DNA of 64,000 bases from NCBI RefSeq assembly GCF_022763305.1, contig NZ_JALEGT010000035.1:1-64000 (forward strand), in the 5' to 3' direction. The number at the start of each line of letters is the position of its first letter. Position 1 is the stretch's first letter. This DNA comes from Marivita sp. Lineage in GTDB: Bacteria > Pseudomonadota > Alphaproteobacteria > Rhodobacterales > Rhodobacteraceae. Below are positions 5,366 through 15,119 of the stretch, one piece after another. A program made the translations under genes and the position numbers. The notes under the pieces were generated by a model that searched no databases, had not been told where the DNA came from, and saw nothing but the letters and a program-made list of their open reading frames with translations.

Positions 5366-6214
5366 TCAGGTCTTGCGGTGTGACGGGTGCCAGAACGTCA
5401 CCCGCTTTTCGATCCAGGCCACGAGTCCGTAGAACGCGGTGCCCGCCAAGGCGGCAACGGCGATTTCGGCCCAGACCAGATCGATCGACAGGCTTCCCAC
5501 ACCCGTCGAAATCCGGAACCCCATCCCGCGCGTGGGGGATCCGAAATATTCAGCCACGATCGCTCCGATCAGGGCAAGGGTTGTCGCGATCTTGAGCCCG
5601 TTGAACACGAAAGGCAGCGCAGCGGGCAGGCGAAGTTTGAGCAGCGTGTCGAAATAACTCGCAGCATAGGTGCGCATGAGGTCGCGCTGCATCGCATCGG
5701 TTTCGCGCAGCCCCTGCACCGTGTTCACGAGGATCGGGAAAAAGACCATCACGACGACCACCGCCGCCTTGGACTGCCAGTCAAAGCCAAACCAACTGAC
5801 GAGGATCGGCGCGATACCGACGATGGGCAGGGCGGCCACGAAATTGCCGATGGGCAGAAGACCACGGGTCAGAAAAGCCGACCGGTCGATCAGGATCGCC
5901 GTGGCAAACGCCGCCAGTACGCCAATCGCAAAGCCTGACAGTGCCCCCTTGAGAACCGTCTGGCGGAAGTCCTCCCAAAGAATGTCGGTGGAGGCTGCAA
6001 AGGTCTGGGCAACTGCAGACGGCGCAGGCAGGATGACCGGCGACACGCCGACCCCGCGCACGATCCCTTCCCAAAGAACGATCAGCGTGACGCCGAACAG
6101 AACCGGGATCAGCACGCGCACAGCCATCGTTCCGCGCCAGCGCGAATTGGCGAGCCACGTATTGAGCCCCCAGGCTCCGATCCAGAACACAAGGGCAAAG
6201 ACCAGCCAGCTCAT
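5366..6214 (-). CDS. ABC transporter permease (second of pair)
   Basis: A 282-residue inner-membrane permease of the BPD_transp_1 (SsuC/TauC/ThiX-like) family. There are about six transmembrane segments, and the cytoplasmic EAA-type loop is seen around LMRTYAASYFDTLLKLRLPA. Its start overlaps the stop of the first permease by 4 bp, so the two subunits are translation-coupled and probably form a heterodimeric channel. The binding-protein gene follows after 29 bp. Confidence 0.9.
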   Translation of the reverse strand: MSWLVFALVFWIGAWGLNTWLANSRWRGTMAVRVLIPVLFGVTLIVLWEGIVRGVGVSPVILPAPSAVAQTFAASTDILWEDFRQTVLKGALSGFAIGVLAAFATAILIDRSAFLTRGLLPIGNFVAALPIVGIAPILVSWFGFDWQSKAAVVVVMVFFPILVNTVQGLRETDAMQRDLMRTYAASYFDTLLKLRLPAALPFVFNGLKIATTLALIGAIVAEYFGSPTRGMGFRISTGVGSLSIDLVWAEIAVAALAGTAFYGLVAWIEKRVTFWHPSHRKT

Positions 6215-7143
6215 GCCTGCATCCCCATGCGCTTCAGCGTGACCCGCTGGACCAAATCCAGCAACGTGACCAGAACTCCGGCCAGGATCGCGGCAGCAAA
6301 AAGCGCCGCCCAGATCGCCAGAGGTGTGCCGAACTGATCCCCGATCAGGATGCGCGCCCCCAGACCCGAGATCGCCCCCGTCGGCAACTCGCCTACAATC
6401 GTGCCCACCAGTGCCGCAGCGATCCCGATCTTGAGCGAGGTGAAAAGATAGGGCATCGACGCAGGCAGACGCAGTTTCAGGAAGGCCTGCACTCCGGACG
6501 CGGAATAGGTCTTGAGCAGATCAAGCTGTGCCGCTCCGGGCGATCTCAATCCCTTGACCATGCCGACAAGCACCGGGAAGTAACACAGATAGGCCGAAAT
6601 GATCGCCTTCGGCACGCCCCGCCCCTCGATGCCGACCTGACTGGACAGCACGATGATCATGGGGGCCAACGCCACGATGGGGATGGTCTGGCTGATGATC
6701 GCCCAGGGCATCAGGCTCATGTCCACGACGCGGCTGTAGACGATGGCAATCGCCCCGGCCATGCCCAGAACCGTGCCCAGTGCAAAGCCCCAGAGGGTGG
6801 ATTGCAGGGTGATCCAGCCGTGATAGATCAATGACCGTTTCGACATGGGCCGCCCGTTAAGCGCCATCTCACCCGTTGTTTTCCAAAGCTCCGACCCCAC
6901 CTGCACCGGCGTCGGCAGCCGAGGACGCTCGAGGCTGTAGCCCAGCGCGATCTGTTCGGGATTGTCGAGCATCAGTCGCCAGACCGACACCTCGAACCGC
7001 GCGCGCGCTTCCGCAGGCATCACCTCGGCCCCTGCGCGTTCGGCCACATCCAGCGCTCCGCGTATGTTCATTGGCGCCACAGCCGCATACCAGAGCGCTG
7101 CCAACGCCGCGAGCACGGTCAGGATGGGAACAAGGCTTCTCAT
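6211..7143 (-). CDS. ABC transporter permease (first of pair)
   Basis: A 310-residue permease with an N-terminal membrane anchor, a periplasmic segment of about 70 residues and then the BPD_transp_1 core (EAA loop LLKTYSASGVQAFLKLRLPA). The loop resembles that of the partner permease, so the two genes look like an ancient duplication. It lies between the ATPase gene (6 bp upstream) and the partner permease (4-bp overlap). The extra N-terminal periplasmic segment is longer than in ThiX- or SsuC-like permeases. Confidence 0.9.
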   Translation of the reverse strand: MRSLVPILTVLAALAALWYAAVAPMNIRGALDVAERAGAEVMPAEARARFEVSVWRLMLDNPEQIALGYSLERPRLPTPVQVGSELWKTTGEMALNGRPMSKRSLIYHGWITLQSTLWGFALGTVLGMAGAIAIVYSRVVDMSLMPWAIISQTIPIVALAPMIIVLSSQVGIEGRGVPKAIISAYLCYFPVLVGMVKGLRSPGAAQLDLLKTYSASGVQAFLKLRLPASMPYLFTSLKIGIAAALVGTIVGELPTGAISGLGARILIGDQFGTPLAIWAALFAAAILAGVLVTLLDLVQRVTLKRMGMQA

Positions 7144-7149
7144 ACCGCC

Positions 7150-7971
7150 TCAGTCGTCATAGGCATGCCCCGCCCGCAGCCCTTCGCGCACGCGGTGCGC
7201 AATGGCGAGGAATTCCGGCGTATCGCGGATGTCGAGCGGCCGCTCCTTGGGCAGCGAGCTCTCAATCACATCGGTGATCCGACCCGGGCGCGGCGACATG
7301 ACAACGATCTTGGTCGACAGATACACCGCTTCGGGGATCGAGTGCGTGACAAACCCGATGGTCTTCTCGGTCCGCGCCCAGAGGTCGAGCAATTGCTCGT
7401 TCAGGTGGTCGCGCACAATCTCGTCCAGCGCCCCGAACGGCTCGTCCATCAGCAGGATATCCGCATCAAAGGCCAGCGCCCGCGCAATCGACGCCCGCTG
7501 CTGCATCCCACCCGAGAGTTGCCAGGGATATTTCTTCCCGAAATTCGACAGCTCCACGAGGTCCAGCACCCGCGCGATCCGCTCGTCCTGCTCGGATTTG
7601 GAATACCCCATGATCTCGAGCGGCAACGCGATGTTCTTCTCGATGGTACGCCACGGATACAGCCCCGCCGCCTGGAACACATAGCCATAGGCCCGCGCCC
7701 GCCGCGCCTCATCCGGCGACATGCCGTTCACTGTCAACGTCCCACCCGTCGGTGTCTCAAGCGCCGCAATGCACCGCAGGAAGGTGGTCTTTCCGCAACC
7801 CGACGGCCCGATGAAACTGACGAACTCGCCTTTGCCGATGTCCAGATCGACACCCGAGAGCGCATGGACCGGCCCGTCATTGGTCTGGAAGGTGAGGTCC
7901 AGCGATTTGGCGGAAATCACCGAAGTGGCTGCACTCTGATCATTGACCGGAGCGGCATGGATCGTTTGCAT
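7150..7971 (-). CDS. ABC transporter ATP-binding protein
   Basis: A 273-residue nitrate/sulfonate/pyrimidine-class ATPase. Walker A GPSGCGKTT, signature LSGGMQQR, Walker B ILLMDEPFGALDE and the switch His in FVTHSIPEA are all present. The ATG at 7971 overlaps the hydantoinase stop (TGATG), indicating coupled translation; an upstream in-frame start would run deep into the hydantoinase gene. It powers the two permeases encoded next. Confidence 0.93.
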   Translation of the reverse strand: MQTIHAAPVNDQSAATSVISAKSLDLTFQTNDGPVHALSGVDLDIGKGEFVSFIGPSGCGKTTFLRCIAALETPTGGTLTVNGMSPDEARRARAYGYVFQAAGLYPWRTIEKNIALPLEIMGYSKSEQDERIARVLDLVELSNFGKKYPWQLSGGMQQRASIARALAFDADILLMDEPFGALDEIVRDHLNEQLLDLWARTEKTIGFVTHSIPEAVYLSTKIVVMSPRPGRITDVIESSLPKERPLDIRDTPEFLAIAHRVREGLRAGHAYDD

Positions 7972-9425
7972 CAAACCCCCGTCGCCGGAATACCGGTTCG
8001 CTCCACCGGACGCGGCGCGGTCAGTTCCTTCCACGTCGACAGCGCCCGGTTTACCGTCCCGTTGCCCGGACGTTTCACGAACTTGCCATGCCCCTCCTGC
8101 GTGCGCATCTCGCCATCATGCACCGCAACATGACCACGCGTTAGCGTGAACCGCGGCAGGCCTTTGACGTGCTGTCCCTCGAACACGTTGTAGTCGATGG
8201 CCGATTGCTGCGAACTGGCGGAAATCGTCTTTTCCTTTTCAGGATCCCAGACCACCAGATCGGCATCCGCACCCACCAGAACCGCACCTTTCTTTGGGTA
8301 GCAGTTCAGGATCTTCGCGATATTGGTCGAGGTCACCGCAACAAACTCGTTCGGCGTCAGCCGCCCGGTTGCCACACCATGTGTCCAGAGCATCGGCATC
8401 CGGTCCTCAAGCCCGCCCGTGCCGTTGGGGATTTTCGAGAAATCGCCAACGCCAAACCGCTTCTGCTCGGTCGTGAAGGCACAATGGTCCGTCGCCACGA
8501 CCGACAGAGTCCCCGATTGCAGACCGGCCCAGAGGCTGTCCTGATGCTGCTTGTTGCGGAACGGTGGCGACATCACGCGGCGCGCGGCGTGGTCCCAGTC
8601 CTGATTGAAATACTCGCTTTCATCCAGCGTCAGATGCTGGATCAGCGGCTCACCCCAGACCCGCTTGCCCTGCATCTTGGCCCGCCGGATCGCCTCATGT
8701 GCCTCTTCGCAGGACGTGTGCACCACATAAAGCGGCACGCCCGCCATATCCGCAATCATGATGGCGCGGTTCGTGGCTTCGCCCTCCACCTGAGACGGCC
8801 GGGAATAGGCATGCCCCTCCGGCCCGGTATTGCCTTCGGCCAGCAGCTTTGCCGTCAGTTCCGCCACCACATCGCCGTTCTCGGCGTGGACCATCGCAAT
8901 CCCGCCCAACTCGGCCAGACGGTTGAACGAGGCATACAACTCATCGTCATTGACCATGAGCGCGCCCTTGTAGGCCATGAAGTGTTTGAACGTGTTGATC
9001 CCGCGTTCTTCGATGACAGGTTTCATCTCGTTGAACACCTGCTCACCCCACCAGGTGACCGCCATGTGAAACGAGTAATCGCAGTTCGCGCGGGTCGATT
9101 TGTTGTCCCACATCTGCAGCGCATCAAAGAGGCCCTGACCGGGGGCCGGCAGCGCGAAATCAACCACCATGGTGGTGCCCCCCGCCAGCGCGGCCCGCGT
9201 GCCACTTTCGAAATCGTCCGAGGAATAGGTGCCCATGAACGGCATCTCGAGATGCGTATGAGGGTCGATCCCGCCGGGCATGACATAACACCCTGTGGCG
9301 TCCAGTTCCGCGTCGCCCTTCAGGTTCGGCCCGATCTGGGTGATGATCCCGTTCTCGATCAGGACATCCGCCTCATAGGTCAGGTCCGCTGTGACAACCG
9401 TTCCGTTCTTGATGACTGTGGTCAT
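7971..9425 (-). CDS. hydA: Dihydropyrimidinase (D-hydantoinase)
   Basis: A 484-residue cyclic amidohydrolase. Metal ligands are visible in DPHTHLEMP (about residue 57), and the lysine expected to be carbamylated lies in FKHFMAYKG (about residue 150). It opens 5,6-dihydrouracil or dihydrothymine to the N-carbamoyl beta-amino acid, the second step of reductive pyrimidine catabolism; hydantoins are also substrates of the family. It stands between the carbamoylase (upstream) and the transporter genes in one transcript. Length and motifs are normal, and dihydropyrimidinase fits the preT/preA neighbours better than allantoinase. Confidence 0.93.
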   Translation of the reverse strand: MTTVIKNGTVVTADLTYEADVLIENGIITQIGPNLKGDAELDATGCYVMPGGIDPHTHLEMPFMGTYSSDDFESGTRAALAGGTTMVVDFALPAPGQGLFDALQMWDNKSTRANCDYSFHMAVTWWGEQVFNEMKPVIEERGINTFKHFMAYKGALMVNDDELYASFNRLAELGGIAMVHAENGDVVAELTAKLLAEGNTGPEGHAYSRPSQVEGEATNRAIMIADMAGVPLYVVHTSCEEAHEAIRRAKMQGKRVWGEPLIQHLTLDESEYFNQDWDHAARRVMSPPFRNKQHQDSLWAGLQSGTLSVVATDHCAFTTEQKRFGVGDFSKIPNGTGGLEDRMPMLWTHGVATGRLTPNEFVAVTSTNIAKILNCYPKKGAVLVGADADLVVWDPEKEKTISASSQQSAIDYNVFEGQHVKGLPRFTLTRGHVAVHDGEMRTQEGHGKFVKRPGNGTVNRALSTWKELTAPRPVERTGIPATGV

Positions 9426-9510: not shown

Positions 9511-10761
9511 CTAGCTGACGATCTCCGCCGTCTCGACGACAGCATGGAAAAGAACATCGGTCCCCGCCGTCGCCCAGTCCTTGGAAATCTCTTCCGCCTC
9601 GTTGTGCGACAGCCCGTCAACGCACGGGCACATCACCATCGCCGTGGGTGCGACATCGTTGATCCAGCAGGCATCATGCCCCGCGCCGGAAACGATATCC
9701 ATGTGTGAATAACCCAAACGCTCCGCCGCATCCCGGATGGCACTGACGCAGGCGGGATCGAATGCGGGCGGATCGAATTGGCCGACGATGTGGCAGTCGA
9801 ATTCCACGCCGATCTCTTCACAGAGCTTTGGCGCACGCTCCATGAATTCATCGACCATGGCGTTCAGCTTGTCGAGAAGATGCGTGCGCATGTCGACGGT
9901 GAAAACCACCTTGCCCGGAATGATATTCCGGCTGTTGGGGTAGACGTCGATATGCCCGATGGCCCCCACCGCATTGGGCTGGTTCTTCATGGCGATCTCG
10001 TGCACCAGCTCGGTGATCAGCGCGAGGCCCCGCCCCGCGTTCTTGCGCATGTGCATCGGCGTCGAGCCGGTATGGCTTTCCTTGCCGGTCACCGTGCATT
10101 CGATCCAGCGCAGGCCCTGCCCGTGGGTGACAACGCCGATATCCTTGCCCTCGGCTTCGAGGATCGGGCCCTGTTCGATATGAAGCTCGAAGAAGGCGTG
10201 CATCTTGCGGTCCCCGACCTTTTCGGGGCCTTTCCAGCCGATCCGCTCCAACTCGTCGCCGAAGGATTTGCCCTTGGCATCGACGCGGTCATAGGCCCAT
10301 TGCAGGTCATGCTTGCCCGCGAAAACCCCGGAGGCCAGCATGGCGGGCGCAAAGCGGGTGCCTTCCTCATTGGTCCAGTTGGTGACAACGATGGGATGCT
10401 TGGTCTTGATCCCCAGATCATTGAGCGAGCGGATCACCTCGAGCCCGCCCAGCACACCCAGGACCCCGTCATATTTGCCCCCAGTTGGCTGGGTATCGAG
10501 ATGCGACCCCACATAGACCGGCAGCGCGTCGGGGTCCGCGCCCTCGCGGCGCGCGAACATGTTGCCGATCTCGTCCACACCCATGGTGCAGCCCGCAGCC
10601 TCGCACCATTTCTGAAACAAGGCGCGGCCTTCGGCATCTTCATCCGTAAGCGTCTGGCGGTTGTTGCCGCCCGCGATGCCCGGCCCGATCTTCGCCATCT
10701 CCATGAGACTGTCCCACAGGCGGTCGCCATTGATCCGCAGGTTTTCTCCGGGTGCTGCCAT
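9511..10761 (-). CDS. Zn-dependent N-carbamoyl-amino-acid hydrolase / beta-ureidopropionase
   Basis: A 416-residue M20-family amidohydrolase (HyuC/AmaB/PydC type). Metal and catalytic segments are seen in GSHLDTQPTGGKYDG, NEEGTRF, ELHIEQGP and SGAGHDA. It hydrolyses N-carbamoyl-beta-alanine or N-carbamoyl-beta-aminoisobutyrate to the beta-amino acid, CO2 and ammonia, the third step of the pathway. I use the ATG at 10761, which follows GAGGGGAAC; the open frame continues upstream through the regulator on the other strand, but that part is not coding. It is the first gene of the operon, 57 bp from the proposed operator. Confidence 0.93.
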   Translation of the reverse strand: MAAPGENLRINGDRLWDSLMEMAKIGPGIAGGNNRQTLTDEDAEGRALFQKWCEAAGCTMGVDEIGNMFARREGADPDALPVYVGSHLDTQPTGGKYDGVLGVLGGLEVIRSLNDLGIKTKHPIVVTNWTNEEGTRFAPAMLASGVFAGKHDLQWAYDRVDAKGKSFGDELERIGWKGPEKVGDRKMHAFFELHIEQGPILEAEGKDIGVVTHGQGLRWIECTVTGKESHTGSTPMHMRKNAGRGLALITELVHEIAMKNQPNAVGAIGHIDVYPNSRNIIPGKVVFTVDMRTHLLDKLNAMVDEFMERAPKLCEEIGVEFDCHIVGQFDPPAFDPACVSAIRDAAERLGYSHMDIVSGAGHDACWINDVAPTAMVMCPCVDGLSHNEAEEISKDWATAGTDVLFHAVVETAEIVS

Positions 10762-10818: not shown

Positions 10819-10834
10819 TTTACCATTTGGTAAA
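10819..10834. promoter_or_regulatory. RutR-like operator 1 (pyrimidine transport/degradation operon)
   Basis: A perfect dyad TTTACCA-TT-TGGTAAA in the divergent region between the carbamoylase and the TetR-family gene. E. coli RutR binds TTGACCA-N2-TGGTCAA; size, spacing and core match. A nearly identical site precedes preT. It probably represses both the catabolic operon and the regulator gene. Confidence 0.75.
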
Positions 10835-10947
10835 GTTACGATTGCAACGCACCCCCAAGCTGTCAAGGTATGTTCTTGAAGGAAAAGTTCAGCGCAGGCC
10901 GTCACAGCGACTCCGTGCCTGCAAATGCAGCATGAGAAGGATCGCCC

Positions 10948-11562
10948 GTGACGAGCACCGCGAGAAAACCCAGTCGTATCCAGACCGAGAACCGCAAGCG
11001 GATCCGTGATGCAGCTCTCGGGTTGTTTTCGACACATGGGTTCCGGGGCACCACGCTCGACCAGATCGCCGAAGCCTGCGGCATGCACAAGCCGAACCTC
11101 ATCTACTATTACGAGAACAAGGAGGCGATCCATATCGACCTTCTCAATACCTTGATGGAAGAATGGCTGAGCCCGCTCGACGCGATGAACCCGGATGGGG
11201 ATCCTTTGGAGGAAATCCTCGGCTACATCCGGCGCAAGATGGAAATGAGCCGCCTCTATCCCCGCGAGTCCCGTCTGTTCGCCAACGAGATCGTGCAGGG
11301 GGCGCCTCGGATGCTTCCGCATCTGGAACGCACGCTGAAACCGCTGTTCGACAGGCAATGCGGGATCCTTGCGAAATGGATGAAGGACGGCAAGATCGCA
11401 GAGATGCACCCGGCGCATCTCATTTTTTCGATCTGGGCCGTCACCCAGCATTACGCGGATTTCGAAGCCCAGATTTCGGTCCTGTTGCCGGGAGACGACA
11501 AACGCGCACGGGGCGCGGACCAGTTTGTCGAGATGATGTTCCGGAAAGTGCTCACGCCGTAG
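10948..11562 (+). CDS. rutR: TetR-family regulator, RutR-like
   Basis: A 204-residue repressor with an N-terminal TetR helix-turn-helix (TTLDQIAEACGMHKPNLIYYYENKE, residues 34-58) and a C-terminal domain of the RutR/YcdC type (QRESRLFANEIVQGAP-like segment about residue 110). RutR of E. coli senses uracil and thymine and controls pyrimidine use. Here it diverges from the carbamoylase operon, and two matching dyads precede the two catabolic operons. The ligand is inferred from family and context. Confidence 0.85.
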   Translation: MTSTARKPSRIQTENRKRIRDAALGLFSTHGFRGTTLDQIAEACGMHKPNLIYYYENKEAIHIDLLNTLMEEWLSPLDAMNPDGDPLEEILGYIRRKMEMSRLYPRESRLFANEIVQGAPRMLPHLERTLKPLFDRQCGILAKWMKDGKIAEMHPAHLIFSIWAVTQHYADFEAQISVLLPGDDKRARGADQFVEMMFRKVLTP

Positions 11563-11606
11563 TGGCGTTTACCGCGCGTTAAACATACCTGGCCGACACT
11601 GACGGC

Positions 11607-11849
11607 ATGTTGATGAACACGCCCTTCGAGTCACCCACAGCCTACAACCCGGCATGGAGAGACCAATTGTTCAGCGCCGATGCGGTGCGGCGCAAAGGTG
11701 TTGTGCGCCGCAAGAAAGGTGCGATCCACAGGGAGGTCGGGTTAAGCCTTCTTCGCGCCGAAGTGCAGGCGCGCGGGTTTCAGCTTTTCGATGTCGGCAC
11801 GGATTATCTGATCGTGTGCCACTCTCAACCAATCACACGCATCGGCTGA
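11607..11849 (+). CDS. Small conserved Rhodobacterales protein
   Basis: An 80-residue basic protein. The central GVVRRKKGAIHREVG and the C-terminal RGFQLFDVGTDYLIVC resemble a family of small Rhodobacterales proteins that databases have labelled, apparently wrongly, as phosphoribosylanthranilate isomerase; it is far too short to be that enzyme. It follows the rutR-like gene by 44 bp on the same strand. No function can be assigned. Coding status rests on this remembered family pattern and on codon use. Confidence 0.55.
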   Translation: MLMNTPFESPTAYNPAWRDQLFSADAVRRKGVVRRKKGAIHREVGLSLLRAEVQARGFQLFDVGTDYLIVCHSQPITRIG

Positions 11850-11904
11850 CGACGGATCGGTCGGTCAACACTCAGTCGTCTATGATCATGGCGCGACCTG
11901 GTCG

Positions 11905-11921
11905 GCCGACTGCCAGTCGGC
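11905..11921. repeat. Hairpin GCCGACT-GCC-AGTCGGC
   Basis: A perfect 7-bp stem with a 3-nt loop in the gap between two converging genes. It has no T-tract. It may serve RNA-end protection together with the larger palindrome 42 bp away. Confidence 0.4.
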
Positions 11922-11962
11922 TTGCCGATTGCCCACACGTCCAGAATTTTATGGCGGCGTTT

Positions 11963-11986
11963 GAGAATCTTCGTACGAAGATTCTC
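11963..11986. repeat. 24-bp perfect palindrome between converging genes
   Basis: The arm GAGAATCTTCGT is followed directly by its reverse complement, centred on TTCGTACGAA. It lies between the small + gene and the preA stop, the place of a bidirectional terminator, but without a T-tract. Palindromes centred on TTCGNNCGAA appear familiar from Roseobacter intergenic regions. Confidence 0.65.
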
Positions 11987-12036
11987 AGGCCACCCCATAA
12001 TATTCTATTAAGCGCGTGCAGAAAACGGCTCGCGCT

Positions 12037-13344
12037 CTACTCAGCCGCCTGACGCACTGCCGGATTGTTCGGATGCGTTGTCCAATCCCCATGCTCCGCC
12101 GCAACGGGCCGACCGGTCCGCTCGTCCACAACACCGACGTCCAGCCGTTCCATTGTGATGCAGTCCTCGACCGGGCAGACATTGACGCACAGGTTGCAGG
12201 CCACGCATTCGTCATCCTTCACGGTGAACACCCGATCCTCGGACATGGCAATCGCCTGATGCGACGTGTCTTCACAGGCCGCAAAGCAGCGCCCACAGGA
12301 GATGCACAGGTCCTGATTGATCCGGGCCTTGGCGATGTAGTTCAGGTTCAGATGCTGCCAGTCGCTGACATTCGGCACGGCGCGGCCGATCAGATCCGAA
12401 GTCGATTGAAGCCCCTTGTCATCCAGATACTGGGACAGACCGGAAATCATCTCCTGTACGATCTTGAACCCATAGGTCATTGCAGCGGTGCAGACCTGAA
12501 CATTCCCCGCGCCCAGCGCCATGAACTCGGCCGCGTCCTTCCACGTGGTCACGCCTCCGATCCCCGAAATCGGCAGGCCCCGCATCTCGGGCGTGCGCGC
12601 AATCTCGGCCACCATGTTGAGCGCAATCGGCTTGACCGCAGGCCCACAATAGCCGCCATGCGCACCTTTGCCGTCAATTGTCGGCTCCGGAGCGAACAGA
12701 TCCAGATCGACCGAGGTGATGGAGTTGATCGTGTTGATCAGGCTCACCGCGTCCGCGCCACCTGCGTGGGCGGCCATCGCGGGTTTCCGGATGTCGGTGA
12801 TGTTCGGCGTCAGCTTCACGATACAGGGCATGCGGGTGTTCTGCTTCACCCAGCGCGTCACCATCTCGATATATTCGGGCACCTGCCCCACCGCGCTGCC
12901 CATGCCGCGTTCCGACATGCCATGTGGGCAGCCGAAATTCAGCTCAGCCCCATCCGCGCCGGTTTCCTCGACCAGCGGCAGGATCGCCTTCCACGCCTCC
13001 TCGACGCAAGGCACCATGAGTGACACGACCATCGCGCGGTCGGGGTAGTCCCGCTTGACCGCCTTGATCTCGCGCAGGTTCACCTCCAGGGGCCGGTCGG
13101 TGATCAGCTCGATATTGTTGAGGCCCAAGAGCCGCCGGTCCGCCCCCCAGATCGCGCCGTAACGCGGCCCGTTGACGTTCACGATGGGTGGCCCCGCCTC
13201 GCCCAGCGTTTTCCAGACGACGCCGCCCCACCCCGCCTCAAAGGCGCGGCGGACGTTGTATTCCTTGTCCGTCGGCGGCGCCGAGGCGAGCCAGAACGGG
13301 TTTGGGCTCTTGATGCCCACGAAGTCGGTTGTCAGGTCAGCCAT
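12037..13344 (-). CDS. preA: NAD-dependent dihydropyrimidine dehydrogenase subunit PreA
   Basis: A 435-residue subunit that reduces uracil and thymine to the dihydro forms with PreT. The FMN-binding dihydroorotate-dehydrogenase-like barrel occupies about residues 1-330, with the catalytic-loop Cys in NFGCPHGMSERG. A two-[4Fe-4S] ferredoxin domain follows (CISCGRCFAAC and CVACNLCVNVCP). The ATG at 13344 has GGGAGG 7 nt upstream; a TTG two codons earlier is not needed. It follows preT by 16 bp. This is the first enzyme of the reductive pathway whose later steps are encoded at 7971-10761. Confidence 0.95.
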   Translation of the reverse strand: MADLTTDFVGIKSPNPFWLASAPPTDKEYNVRRAFEAGWGGVVWKTLGEAGPPIVNVNGPRYGAIWGADRRLLGLNNIELITDRPLEVNLREIKAVKRDYPDRAMVVSLMVPCVEEAWKAILPLVEETGADGAELNFGCPHGMSERGMGSAVGQVPEYIEMVTRWVKQNTRMPCIVKLTPNITDIRKPAMAAHAGGADAVSLINTINSITSVDLDLFAPEPTIDGKGAHGGYCGPAVKPIALNMVAEIARTPEMRGLPISGIGGVTTWKDAAEFMALGAGNVQVCTAAMTYGFKIVQEMISGLSQYLDDKGLQSTSDLIGRAVPNVSDWQHLNLNYIAKARINQDLCISCGRCFAACEDTSHQAIAMSEDRVFTVKDDECVACNLCVNVCPVEDCITMERLDVGVVDERTGRPVAAEHGDWTTHPNNPAVRQAAE

Positions 13345-13360
13345 TCTCAATCCTCCCGGA

Positions 13361-14686
13361 TCAGGCGCGCATCAGCGCGGCGTGGATGTCTTCGGCGGCG
13401 TCCCGCCCTTCAGCAACGGCAGTCACCGTCAGGTCTTCCCCACCAGCGGCGCAATCGCCGCCGGCCCAGACACCTTTGACCGAGGTGCGGCCCGGACCGG
13501 TCACGGCAATCTTGCGCCCGTCGAGATCAGGCAGGTCATCGCCGGTCAGCGTCTGACCGATCGCCTTGAACACCTGATCGGCGGCAAGCCGGAAGGTCTG
13601 GCCGGTGGGGGTCAGGTCATCATCGGTGAATTCGAACTCGATCTCGCGCACGGCCCCGTTGCCATGCACCGCGATGGGCGAGGCATTGGTGATGATCCGC
13701 ACGCCCTTTGCAGCAGCCAGATCCTGTTCCCACACGCTCGCATTCATCCGGTCGCGACCCCGGCGATAGACGATCGTCACGTTCAACGCGCCCAGAAGTT
13801 TCGACTGAACCGCCGCATCCACGGCCGTCATGCCACCGCCGATCACGACAACGTCACGGCCCACGGGCAGAGTGCTGAGGTCCGCGCATTGCCGCAGATC
13901 AGCGATGAAGCCCACTGCATCCAGCACGCCCTCCTTGTCGGCCCCCGGTGCCGTCAGCGCGTTGACGCCCCCCAGACCCATGCCAAGGAACACCGCGTCA
14001 TAATCCGACTGAAGGTCAGCCATCGTCACATCACGGCCCAGCGCCATGTTGTTGCGGATTTCAATTCCGCCGATCTGCAGGAGCCAGTCGACTTCGCGCG
14101 CTGCAAAATCCTCGGTGCTCTTGTACGCGGCAATGCCGTATTCATTGAGACCACCAGCCTTGGGCCGCGCGTCAAAGACCACCACGTCATGCCCGTGCAT
14201 CGCCAGACGGTGCGCACAAGCCAACCCTGCCGGACCGGCCCCGACAACGGCAATACGCTTGCCGGTCGAGGCCGCCCGGGAGAAAGGATGCACCCCTTGC
14301 TCCATCAGCGTGTCGGTCGCGTAACGCTGCAGGCGGCCGATCTGGACCGGCTCTCCTTCGGCGGCTTCGCGCACACAGGCCTGTTCGCACAGGGTTTCGG
14401 TTGGGCAGACACGCGCGCACATGCCGCCCATGATATTCTGCGTCAGGATCGTCTTGGCCGACGCTTCGGGGGTTCCAGTGGCGATCTGGCGGATGAAGAG
14501 CGGGATGTCGATGTCGGTGGGGCAGGCGGTGATGCAGGGCGCATCGTGGCAAAAGTAGCAGCGGTCTGCCGCCACCAGGGCTTCGTGATCACTCAGGGGG
14601 GCGTGCAGGTCGGCAAATCCGGCACTGAGCGCGTCAGGGTCCAAACGGCCCGAAACTATGCCTTCTTTCAATGCTCTGGCGTCCAT
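13361..14686 (-). CDS. preT: NAD-dependent dihydropyrimidine dehydrogenase subunit PreT
   Basis: A 441-residue FAD/NADH subunit. The N-terminal Fe-S region has the cysteines RCYFCHDAPCITACP and MCARVCPTETLCEQACV, followed by an FAD Rossmann motif [12 protein letters not shown] and an NAD(P) motif VIGGGMTAVDAA, as in the glutamate synthase small-subunit family. It passes electrons from NADH to PreA. The ATG at 14686 is chosen because GGAG lies 7 nt upstream; a GTG two codons before lies against the GGAG. First gene of preT-preA, 56 bp after the second operator. Confidence 0.94.
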   Translation of the reverse strand: MDARALKEGIVSGRLDPDALSAGFADLHAPLSDHEALVAADRCYFCHDAPCITACPTDIDIPLFIRQIATGTPEASAKTILTQNIMGGMCARVCPTETLCEQACVREAAEGEPVQIGRLQRYATDTLMEQGVHPFSRAASTGKRIAVVGAGPAGLACAHRLAMHGHDVVVFDARPKAGGLNEYGIAAYKSTEDFAAREVDWLLQIGGIEIRNNMALGRDVTMADLQSDYDAVFLGMGLGGVNALTAPGADKEGVLDAVGFIADLRQCADLSTLPVGRDVVVIGGGMTAVDAAVQSKLLGALNVTIVYRRGRDRMNASVWEQDLAAAKGVRIITNASPIAVHGNGAVREIEFEFTDDDLTPTGQTFRLAADQVFKAIGQTLTGDDLPDLDGRKIAVTGPGRTSVKGVWAGGDCAAGGEDLTVTAVAEGRDAAEDIHAALMRA

Positions 14687-14742
14687 CGTCACACTCCGAA
14701 ATCAGGTTGTCCGTTGCCGAAACGGTCTCACGGGTCGAAAAT

Positions 14743-14758
14743 TTTATCAACTGGTAAA
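14743..14758. promoter_or_regulatory. RutR-like operator 2 (preT-preA)
   Basis: TTTATCA-AC-TGGTAAA, extended to ATTTTATCA...TGGTAAAAT, with one mismatch between arms. It matches operator 1 at 13 of 14 arm positions and lies at the same distance from its gene start (57 against 58 bp). The shared geometry points to one regulator. Confidence 0.72.
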
Positions 14759-14903: not shown

Positions 14904-15119
14904 ATGGCACTGACACAGACATACCAAGGCCAGAAGCCTGGTTTCTTCTCCAGCCTGCTTGATGGCCTGACTCGCGGTTTGAGCCAGGTCGCAGAGGCAA
15001 ACTCGCGGATCCGCGAAGTCGAGCGTCTTCAGGCGCTGTCGGACGAAGCACTGGCTGCCAAGGGCATCCGTCGTGACGACATCGTGCGCCACGTCTTCCG
15101 GGATCTCTACTGGCTGTAA
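14904..15119 (+). CDS. DUF1127 domain protein
   Basis: A 71-residue protein with a C-terminal YjiS-like DUF1127 segment (LQALSDEALAAKGIRRDDIVRHVFRD). Members of this family are small arginine-rich proteins; some bind RNA or link phosphate and carbon metabolism in alphaproteobacteria. The N-terminal half (FFSSLLDGLTRGL) is amphipathic. The ATG is preceded by GAGG. The gene stands alone between the preT promoter and a strong terminator. Confidence 0.88.
   Translation: MALTQTYQGQKPGFFSSLLDGLTRGLSQVAEANSRIREVERLQALSDEALAAKGIRRDDIVRHVFRDLYWL

Follow-up and report, generated by a model that had tools for sequence, protein, structure and literature searches.

A probable RutR-type operator pair in Marivita and a conserved, genus-specific set of like palindromes that lie mostly inside genes

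Introduction

What do two matching palindromes beside the genes for pyrimidine breakdown control, and does their word stop at those genes? The question comes from a stretch of 64,000 nucleotides of Marivita sp. (contig NZ_JALEGT010000035.1, positions 1 to 64,000; hereafter the window), in which a gene for a RutR-type regulator of the TetR family stands among preT, preA and genes for a dihydropyrimidinase, a carbamoylase and an ATP-binding cassette (ABC) transporter. A preliminary description of this DNA ascribed both palindromes to a RutR-like regulator and took them to define a pyrimidine-degradation regulon; it was correct in observation, largely right in meaning and, when taken alone, ordinary. 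What is new is that one of the two words belongs to a conserved, genus-specific set of RutR-type palindromes, which lie mostly inside genes. Arguing from sequence, we propose a chromosome-wide network of such sites, to which RutR or another reader of the same word would bind.

Palindromes across Marivita genomes

Three features of the window are needed from the outset:

10819-10834, unstranded: operator 1, a perfect dyad of 7-2-7 layout, TTTACCATTTGGTAAA, with the carbamoylase gene on one side and rutR on the other
14743-14758, unstranded: operator 2, a dyad TTTATCAACTGGTAAA ahead of preT
10948-11562, plus strand: RutR-type TetR-family regulator, 204 amino acids, the candidate binder (PF08362, TIGR03613, phmmer)

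Both dyads are where the preliminary description had placed them and share 13 of their 14 arm bases, one arm base being different. Its statement that the window holds no other copy is right for the dyad form in these 64 kilobases (kb), where the pattern TTTAYCANNTGGTAAA with up to two mismatches matches twice against a mean of 0.07 in dinucleotide shuffles, but misleads outside them: the source genome (G000) contains 40 perfect TTKACCRNNYGGTMAA palindromes, operator 1 being one of them, versus 2 for the reversed control. Across 17 Marivita genomes (control 0-3) we counted 40, 46, 39, 39, 33, 32, 13 and 38 perfect sites in G000 to G007 and 0, 42, 21, 3, 26, 31, 4, 18 and 26 in G008 to G016, with 14 of the 17 holding 13-46. 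Among 394 sampled genomes of the family, two are Marivita, and the 392 outside the genus contain 0-6 sites (control 0-5); in another search 24 non-Marivita genomes of the family and class have 0-3. Set against the 0-6 sites of other genera, the Marivita counts thus tie the expansion to a single genus within the sample. A literature search, which covered open-licence papers only, gave no description of this Marivita site family among the matches listed.

Sites retained at fixed positions

The genome-wide sites are, as far as sequence can tell, almost certainly selected protein-binding sites. When the 40 source-genome sites are looked up in related species, 29 are perfect at the same place in G007 (M. 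geojedonensis) versus 8.3 expected (P 3e-12), and 20 in G016 (M. cryptomonadis) versus 6.0 expected (P 2e-7), operator 1 being counted within both figures. The expectations derive from control windows in the same alignments, hence from conserved loci (keep probability 0.207 for G007 and 0.150 for G016), and because only site-bearing loci of G007 and G016 were compared, 29 and 20 are lower bounds. In the reverse direction, 29 of the 38 sites of G007 and 21 of the 26 of G016 are perfect in G000. Nor is the neighbourhood simply frozen, since the two free central bases differ between the genomes (at 11 of 58 positions in G007 and 12 of 40 in G016), as do the flanks (at 0.141 and 0.160). In G015 (M. 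hallyeonensis), 13 of 18 sites (12 of 17 when the operator is set aside) stand where G000, G007 or G016 has a perfect site; the shared ones have flanks of roughly 67-86% identity with degenerate positions often swapped, and five sites are unshared.

Four sites were traced across the genus. At one, which is intragenic, 12 of 13 aligned genomes have the palindrome intact, and in G011 it has decayed by two mismatches; at the traced intergenic sites inner bases change while the palindrome is often kept. Among the losses, the first traced site is absent from G015 and G008 (with one mismatch in G010), the second was lost in G016 and the third in G011 and G012. Coverage was uneven: 11 of the 26 sites of G012 and one position of the 13 in G006 were examined, and those of G001-G005, G009 and G013 were seen at the four traced places only.

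Where the sites lie

With the 40 sites aligned on both strands, information spans about 22 palindromic base pairs (bp), the extended form WTTTKACCRNNYGGTMAAAW around the core TTKACCRNNYGGTMAA; T stands directly outside the core in 72 of 80 half-sites and the flanks are near random. Assigned to classes that are approximate, as the gene models of the fetched stretches came from a simple script, 23 of the 40 sites are coding (coding makes up 89.1% of the fetched sequence), six lie between convergent genes (about 0.4 expected, from 1.0% of the sequence), eight between tandem genes (about 2.7 expected, from 6.7%), one - operator 1 itself - between divergent genes (3.3%), and two are unclassed. Several sites sit 2-7 bp past a stop codon. 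The coding sites are spread over the three reading frames (14, 6 and 3), a distribution that a protein motif does not explain. Two other origins were considered and rejected, a repeated mobile element on account of dissimilar flanks and the three reading frames, and an RNA hairpin because in many sites a T on one arm faces a C on the other and the third arm pair is broken.

A Pfam scan of 22 of the 23 site-bearing coding genes returned mostly unrelated functions (lipoyl ligase, NAD synthase, Dxs, Rpe, MoeA, a histidine-kinase-like protein and others). The 40 sites are not found mostly in promoter regions, as those of an ordinary transcription-factor regulon are, and the set as a whole is unlike a promoter regulon. 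The pyrimidine-degradation regulon of the preliminary description consequently survives in part: there are probable operators beside its genes, but with some 40 copies of the word in the genome, most of them intragenic, the sites define more than that regulon.

The regulator and its two probable operators

The gene that diverges from operator 1 on the plus strand is indeed RutR-like, as had been said. Its product joins a TetR N-terminal domain to a TetR_C_3 C-terminal domain, as RutR does, and is the sole TetR_C_3 (YcdC-like; PF08362) match in the genome, at 152.4 bits against a cut-off of 25. It aligns gap-free over residues 4-180 to E. coli RutR (structures 3loc, 4jyk and 4xk4; phmmer E 9.1e-50). 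In E. coli RutR, uracil is contacted by W77, Y97, W167, Q171 and Q179' of the partner chain, and K52/K62 acetylation abolishes DNA binding (PMC10891134). All five uracil contacts (here W73, Y93, W163, Q167 and Q175) are kept throughout, by each of the 15 Marivita rows and each of the 65 others, and the regulator retains K52 and K62 of the E. coli protein. A difference shows in the recognition helix, where the residue before the base-contacting Lys is His in all 15 Marivita rows versus Ser in all 65 others. In the RutR tree the remaining 13 Marivita rows form a group with G015 and G006 outside it (support 98/92); the enzyme tree does not resolve the Marivita branching order.

For the operators we compared family loci that surround the regulator gene, namely the best 80 of 241, scoring a dyad if it matched at least 12 of the 14 arm bases of one of three forms and lay at most 200 bp upstream of the gene. 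Scanning relatives in this way, as the preliminary description had suggested, we found a dyad ahead of preT in 62 of the 63 loci where it was scorable (median distance to the start 56 bp) and ahead of the carbamoylase gene in 67 of 74 (median 58 bp), while shuffles of a sample of these upstream regions gave zero matching dyads. In the window the distances to the ATG are 57 bp from operator 1 to the carbamoylase gene and 56 bp from operator 2 to preT, each one base less than previously counted, albeit with the placing as described. From this conservation ahead of orthologous genes and from the five uracil-contact residues, the two dyads are very probably operators of a RutR-type protein, which bears out their earlier assignment to a single such regulator; this operator part is an already known kind of regulon.

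The preliminary description went further and saw in the window an alphaproteobacterial form that replaces the G/C pair of the arm by T/A. This does not hold: among 67 family dyads of operator 1, the pair is G/C on both arms in 40, as in E. coli, T/A on both in 24 (Marivita, Salipiger and some other genera) and mixed in 3. Operators of the TTGACCA-N2-TGGTCAA type thus stand before pyrimidine-breakdown genes in the T/A variant in the window and in both variants in orthologous loci. Operator 2 reads TTTATCA-NN-TGGTAAA in 48 of 62 loci, and in 57 of them both of its arms carry T/A. Since operator 1 splits in this manner, the arm pair is a free choice, in agreement with Leyn et al. 2016, who describe a RutR motif that changes by taxon and give RutR regulons for 68 proteobacterial genomes (PMC5343134).

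Some further dyads and words came up around these operators. In many family loci (within L088-L167) there is a second, weaker word (TTGCCCATCTGGTCNA and near variants), at a distance of about 250 bp from operator 1; it lies upstream of operator 1 as seen from rutR, apparently within the carbamoylase coding sequence, and may reflect codon constraint or an internal operator. Four loci (L108, L115, L137 and L146) are without a dyad adjoining rutR and have two RutR-like dyads about 32 bp apart, some 735-815 bp before it, which suggests tandem operators after an insertion between the genes. In G000 there are three more dyads of the TTTATCA type, the form of operator 2 (L037 at C24:24569, L038 at C48:107550 and L039 at C57:8107), and the genes beside them are ABC transporter genes, tex and a glucose/sorbosone dehydrogenase gene.

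Binder and function of the sites

How might one regulator serve both its operators and a genome-wide set of sites? On the model of E. coli RutR, a RutR dimer would, in the absence of uracil, sit on both dyads and block transcription of preT-preA and of the genes for dihydropyrimidinase, carbamoylase and the ABC transporter, that is, of reductive pyrimidine breakdown, and uracil would release it. The same palindrome occurs at 12 to 45 further places in 14 of the 17 Marivita genomes, mostly inside or behind genes, and the altered Marivita RutR may bind there as well. These places would serve the chromosome as a body, through folding, positioning or segregation, and not chiefly single promoters, and one uracil-sensing protein would then do two jobs. 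That RutR itself binds the genome-wide sites we regard as somewhat more likely than not, although the evidence for it is circumstantial. For a role that is mainly structural or positional we see about an even chance, which still makes it the likeliest single role; we had put it slightly above even before a recount of promoter-proximal sites. It is favoured by the positions of the sites, which are retained and for the most part fall within or after genes of unrelated function. One TetR protein with both jobs has a precedent, as Vibrio SlmA, a nucleoid occlusion protein of the TetR family, also activates the catabolic operon chb (PMC5519180). The explanation as a whole, RutR operators together with genome-wide RutR sites that have a role for the chromosome, falls just short of even chances in our estimate. 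More speculative, and rather unlikely in its full detail, is the scenario of a uracil-sensing repressor turned chromosome organiser, in which RutR dimers on some 40 palindromes would tie folding, positioning or segregation to the pyrimidine pool, and the network would be as old as the genus and would have been lost again in two lineages, in which RutR stayed on for its metabolic job.

Several observations weigh against this reading. G011 and G014 (Marivita sp. SBSPR1 and SBSPR2; L099 and L102) have only 3 and 4 sites, although both operators, the His and RutR itself (at 86% and 84% identity) are still present. As the remaining sites are common to site-rich species (2 of 3 and 4 of 4, operator included) and both genomes fall inside the 13-row RutR clade, site loss is the simplest reading. 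RutR alone does not maintain the network, and its presence in both genomes despite their few sites is the strongest argument on this point; a lost partner or another binder is needed, and the two genomes are natural material in which to look for such a partner. The notion that the sites avoid promoters had to be given up, too: eight of the 40 lie at most 300 bp upstream of a called gene start, namely operator 1 and seven tandem sites (one of these ahead of a doubtful 37-codon open reading frame (ORF)), and two of the 23 coding sites are at the very start of their genes (relative position 0.01 and 0.04). For this reason some sites may be ordinary operators. Purine metabolism appears among the site genes (urate oxidase, adenine deaminase and XdhC, with purH beside a site), in keeping with what a metabolic regulon would show. 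Near dnaA, within 240 kb, there is 1 non-operator site versus 9.5 expected, a tally over six genomes that share sites by descent, none of them singly significant. As to the protein, it misses the RutR equivalog cut-offs of NCBI (TIGR03613 at 198.6 versus 368 bits, NF011584 at 183.3 versus 230) and is therefore filed as RutR-type, not as an equivalog. In Marivita it shows a weak excess of rate (p 0.014 in one comparison, and 0.058, 0.13 and 0.59 in the others), and the same test is also significant, and contradictory, for dihydropyrimidinase. A fast RutR stem seen in our first trees was dropped, the excess being modest and not robust with closer outgroups.

The behaviour of G011 and G014 is what one would expect if the two dyads were an ordinary RutR regulon and the genome-wide palindromes were read by a different Marivita DNA-binding protein with nearly the same word. 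We find this doubtful, albeit the most serious of the alternatives. The genome-wide word has the length, spacing and degeneracy of the family's RutR operators, and G000 has a single TetR_C_3 match. When its proteins were searched with the DNA-binding domain of RutR, no second similar reading head turned up, the next best reaching 33-34% identity, in a search that did not extend to non-TetR binders; of the four hits at that level, the recognition helix was readable in two and differs in both. Moreover, G008, the genome without a RutR ortholog (best match E 1.6e-7), has no sites.

Granted RutR as the binder, its sites may still act on transcription locally, as operators before some genes and, between convergent genes or inside genes, as RutR roadblocks against read-through, which would tie the genes concerned to pyrimidine status. 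The excess between convergent and tandem genes, the sites just past stop codons, the seven tandem sites close upstream of a gene and the purine-metabolism genes all speak for such a role, but the 23 intragenic sites are at scattered relative positions and most of the scanned site genes are unrelated, and we rate it as unlikely. It is more unlikely still that the intragenic sites are transcriptionally inert or decoys, left by drift or kept for titration. There are models for this in E. coli, where RutR is reported to bind within genes apparently without transcript effect (PMC6397444, citing Shimada 2008), and where intragenic PhoB sites, mostly unconserved and showing no regulation, are argued to be inert (PMC10294691). 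The Marivita sites, in contrast to those of PhoB, are conserved at fixed positions across species while free bases change, and they exceed the reversed control twentyfold. Conserved in place and confined to one genus among those sampled, the set offers a sequence-level counter-example to the inert-site view. The set, with close relatives that lack or have lost it, makes it testable how a local metabolic repressor could come to do a genome-wide job, and likewise whether one protein links nucleotide supply and chromosome handling.

Comparison with chromosome-wide systems

MatP and its matS sites, a few dozen palindromes in one chromosome, organise the terminus macrodomain. The Marivita set resembles them in having a few dozen palindromes per chromosome and differs in not being confined to one short region. 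A macrodomain of the terminus only was accordingly rejected: sites occur on 24 of the 121 contigs of G000, and ten on a 1.44 Mb contig of G012 are spread over 1.1 Mb of it (76-1210 kb). GC skew, sampled on G012 contigs for an origin-to-terminus order, was too weak and noisy. SlmA and Noc read words that differ from the Marivita word. What the Marivita sites have in common with theirs is the use of specific sites over the whole chromosome and, with SlmA, a TetR protein that also regulates a catabolic operon. The sites of SlmA and Noc are more prevalent near the origin (PMC4117426), whereas the Marivita sites look depleted near dnaA; if this trend holds, it is the opposite, and the Marivita network is hence not a copy of theirs. 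ZapT of Caulobacter was rejected as a match, since it belongs to the MerR family and, in the excerpt of PMC7188993, no motif was found.

The closest likeness is to RutR itself. The RutR regulon of pyrimidine catabolism (E. coli, and the comparative reconstruction of Leyn et al., PMC5343134) has a TetR_C_3 regulator beside pyrimidine-breakdown genes, a 16 bp 7-2-7 palindrome and the same uracil contacts; Marivita differs from it in using the reductive Pre/hydantoinase route, not rutA-G, and in its dozens of additional conserved, mostly intragenic sites. Binding within genes is reported for E. coli RutR (PMC6397444), but the Marivita sites stand far above the reversed control.

Genes around the operators

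The genes around the two operators, which agree with the preliminary description, and one further site are as follows:

5366-6214, minus strand: ABC transporter permease (matches under curated cut-offs)
6211-7143, minus strand: ABC transporter permease (matches under curated cut-offs)
7150-8034, minus strand: ABC transporter ATP-binding protein, nitrate/taurine/sulfonate-like (matches under curated cut-offs)
7971-9425, minus strand: dihydropyrimidinase (TIGR02033 606 bits, cut-off 393)
9511-10761, minus strand: M20 carbamoylase of the hydantoinase/carbamoylase family, last step of reductive pyrimidine breakdown (TIGR01879 389 bits and NF006769 696 bits, both above cut-off)
11568-11583, unstranded: copy of the genome-wide word with one mismatch, TTTACCGCGCGTTAAA, 5 bp past the rutR stop codon
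12037-13344, minus strand: PreA, NAD-dependent dihydropyrimidine dehydrogenase subunit (NF006183 722 bits, cut-off 335)
13361-14686, minus strand: PreT-type NAD(P)-binding subunit (NF009410 300 bits, under the cut-off of 516)

The name preT is used for 13361-14686 because the gene adjoins preA, and for the ATP-binding protein, given here as in the ORF list, an alternative gene model puts the start at 7920. The small ORF at 11608-11847 lay outside the NCBIfam profile search. Across operator 2, an ORF of 71 amino acids (14904-15119), without an NCBIfam match at E 0.001, diverges from preT. The one-mismatch copy at 11568-11583 has the same placing behind a stop codon as several of the perfect sites elsewhere in the genome.

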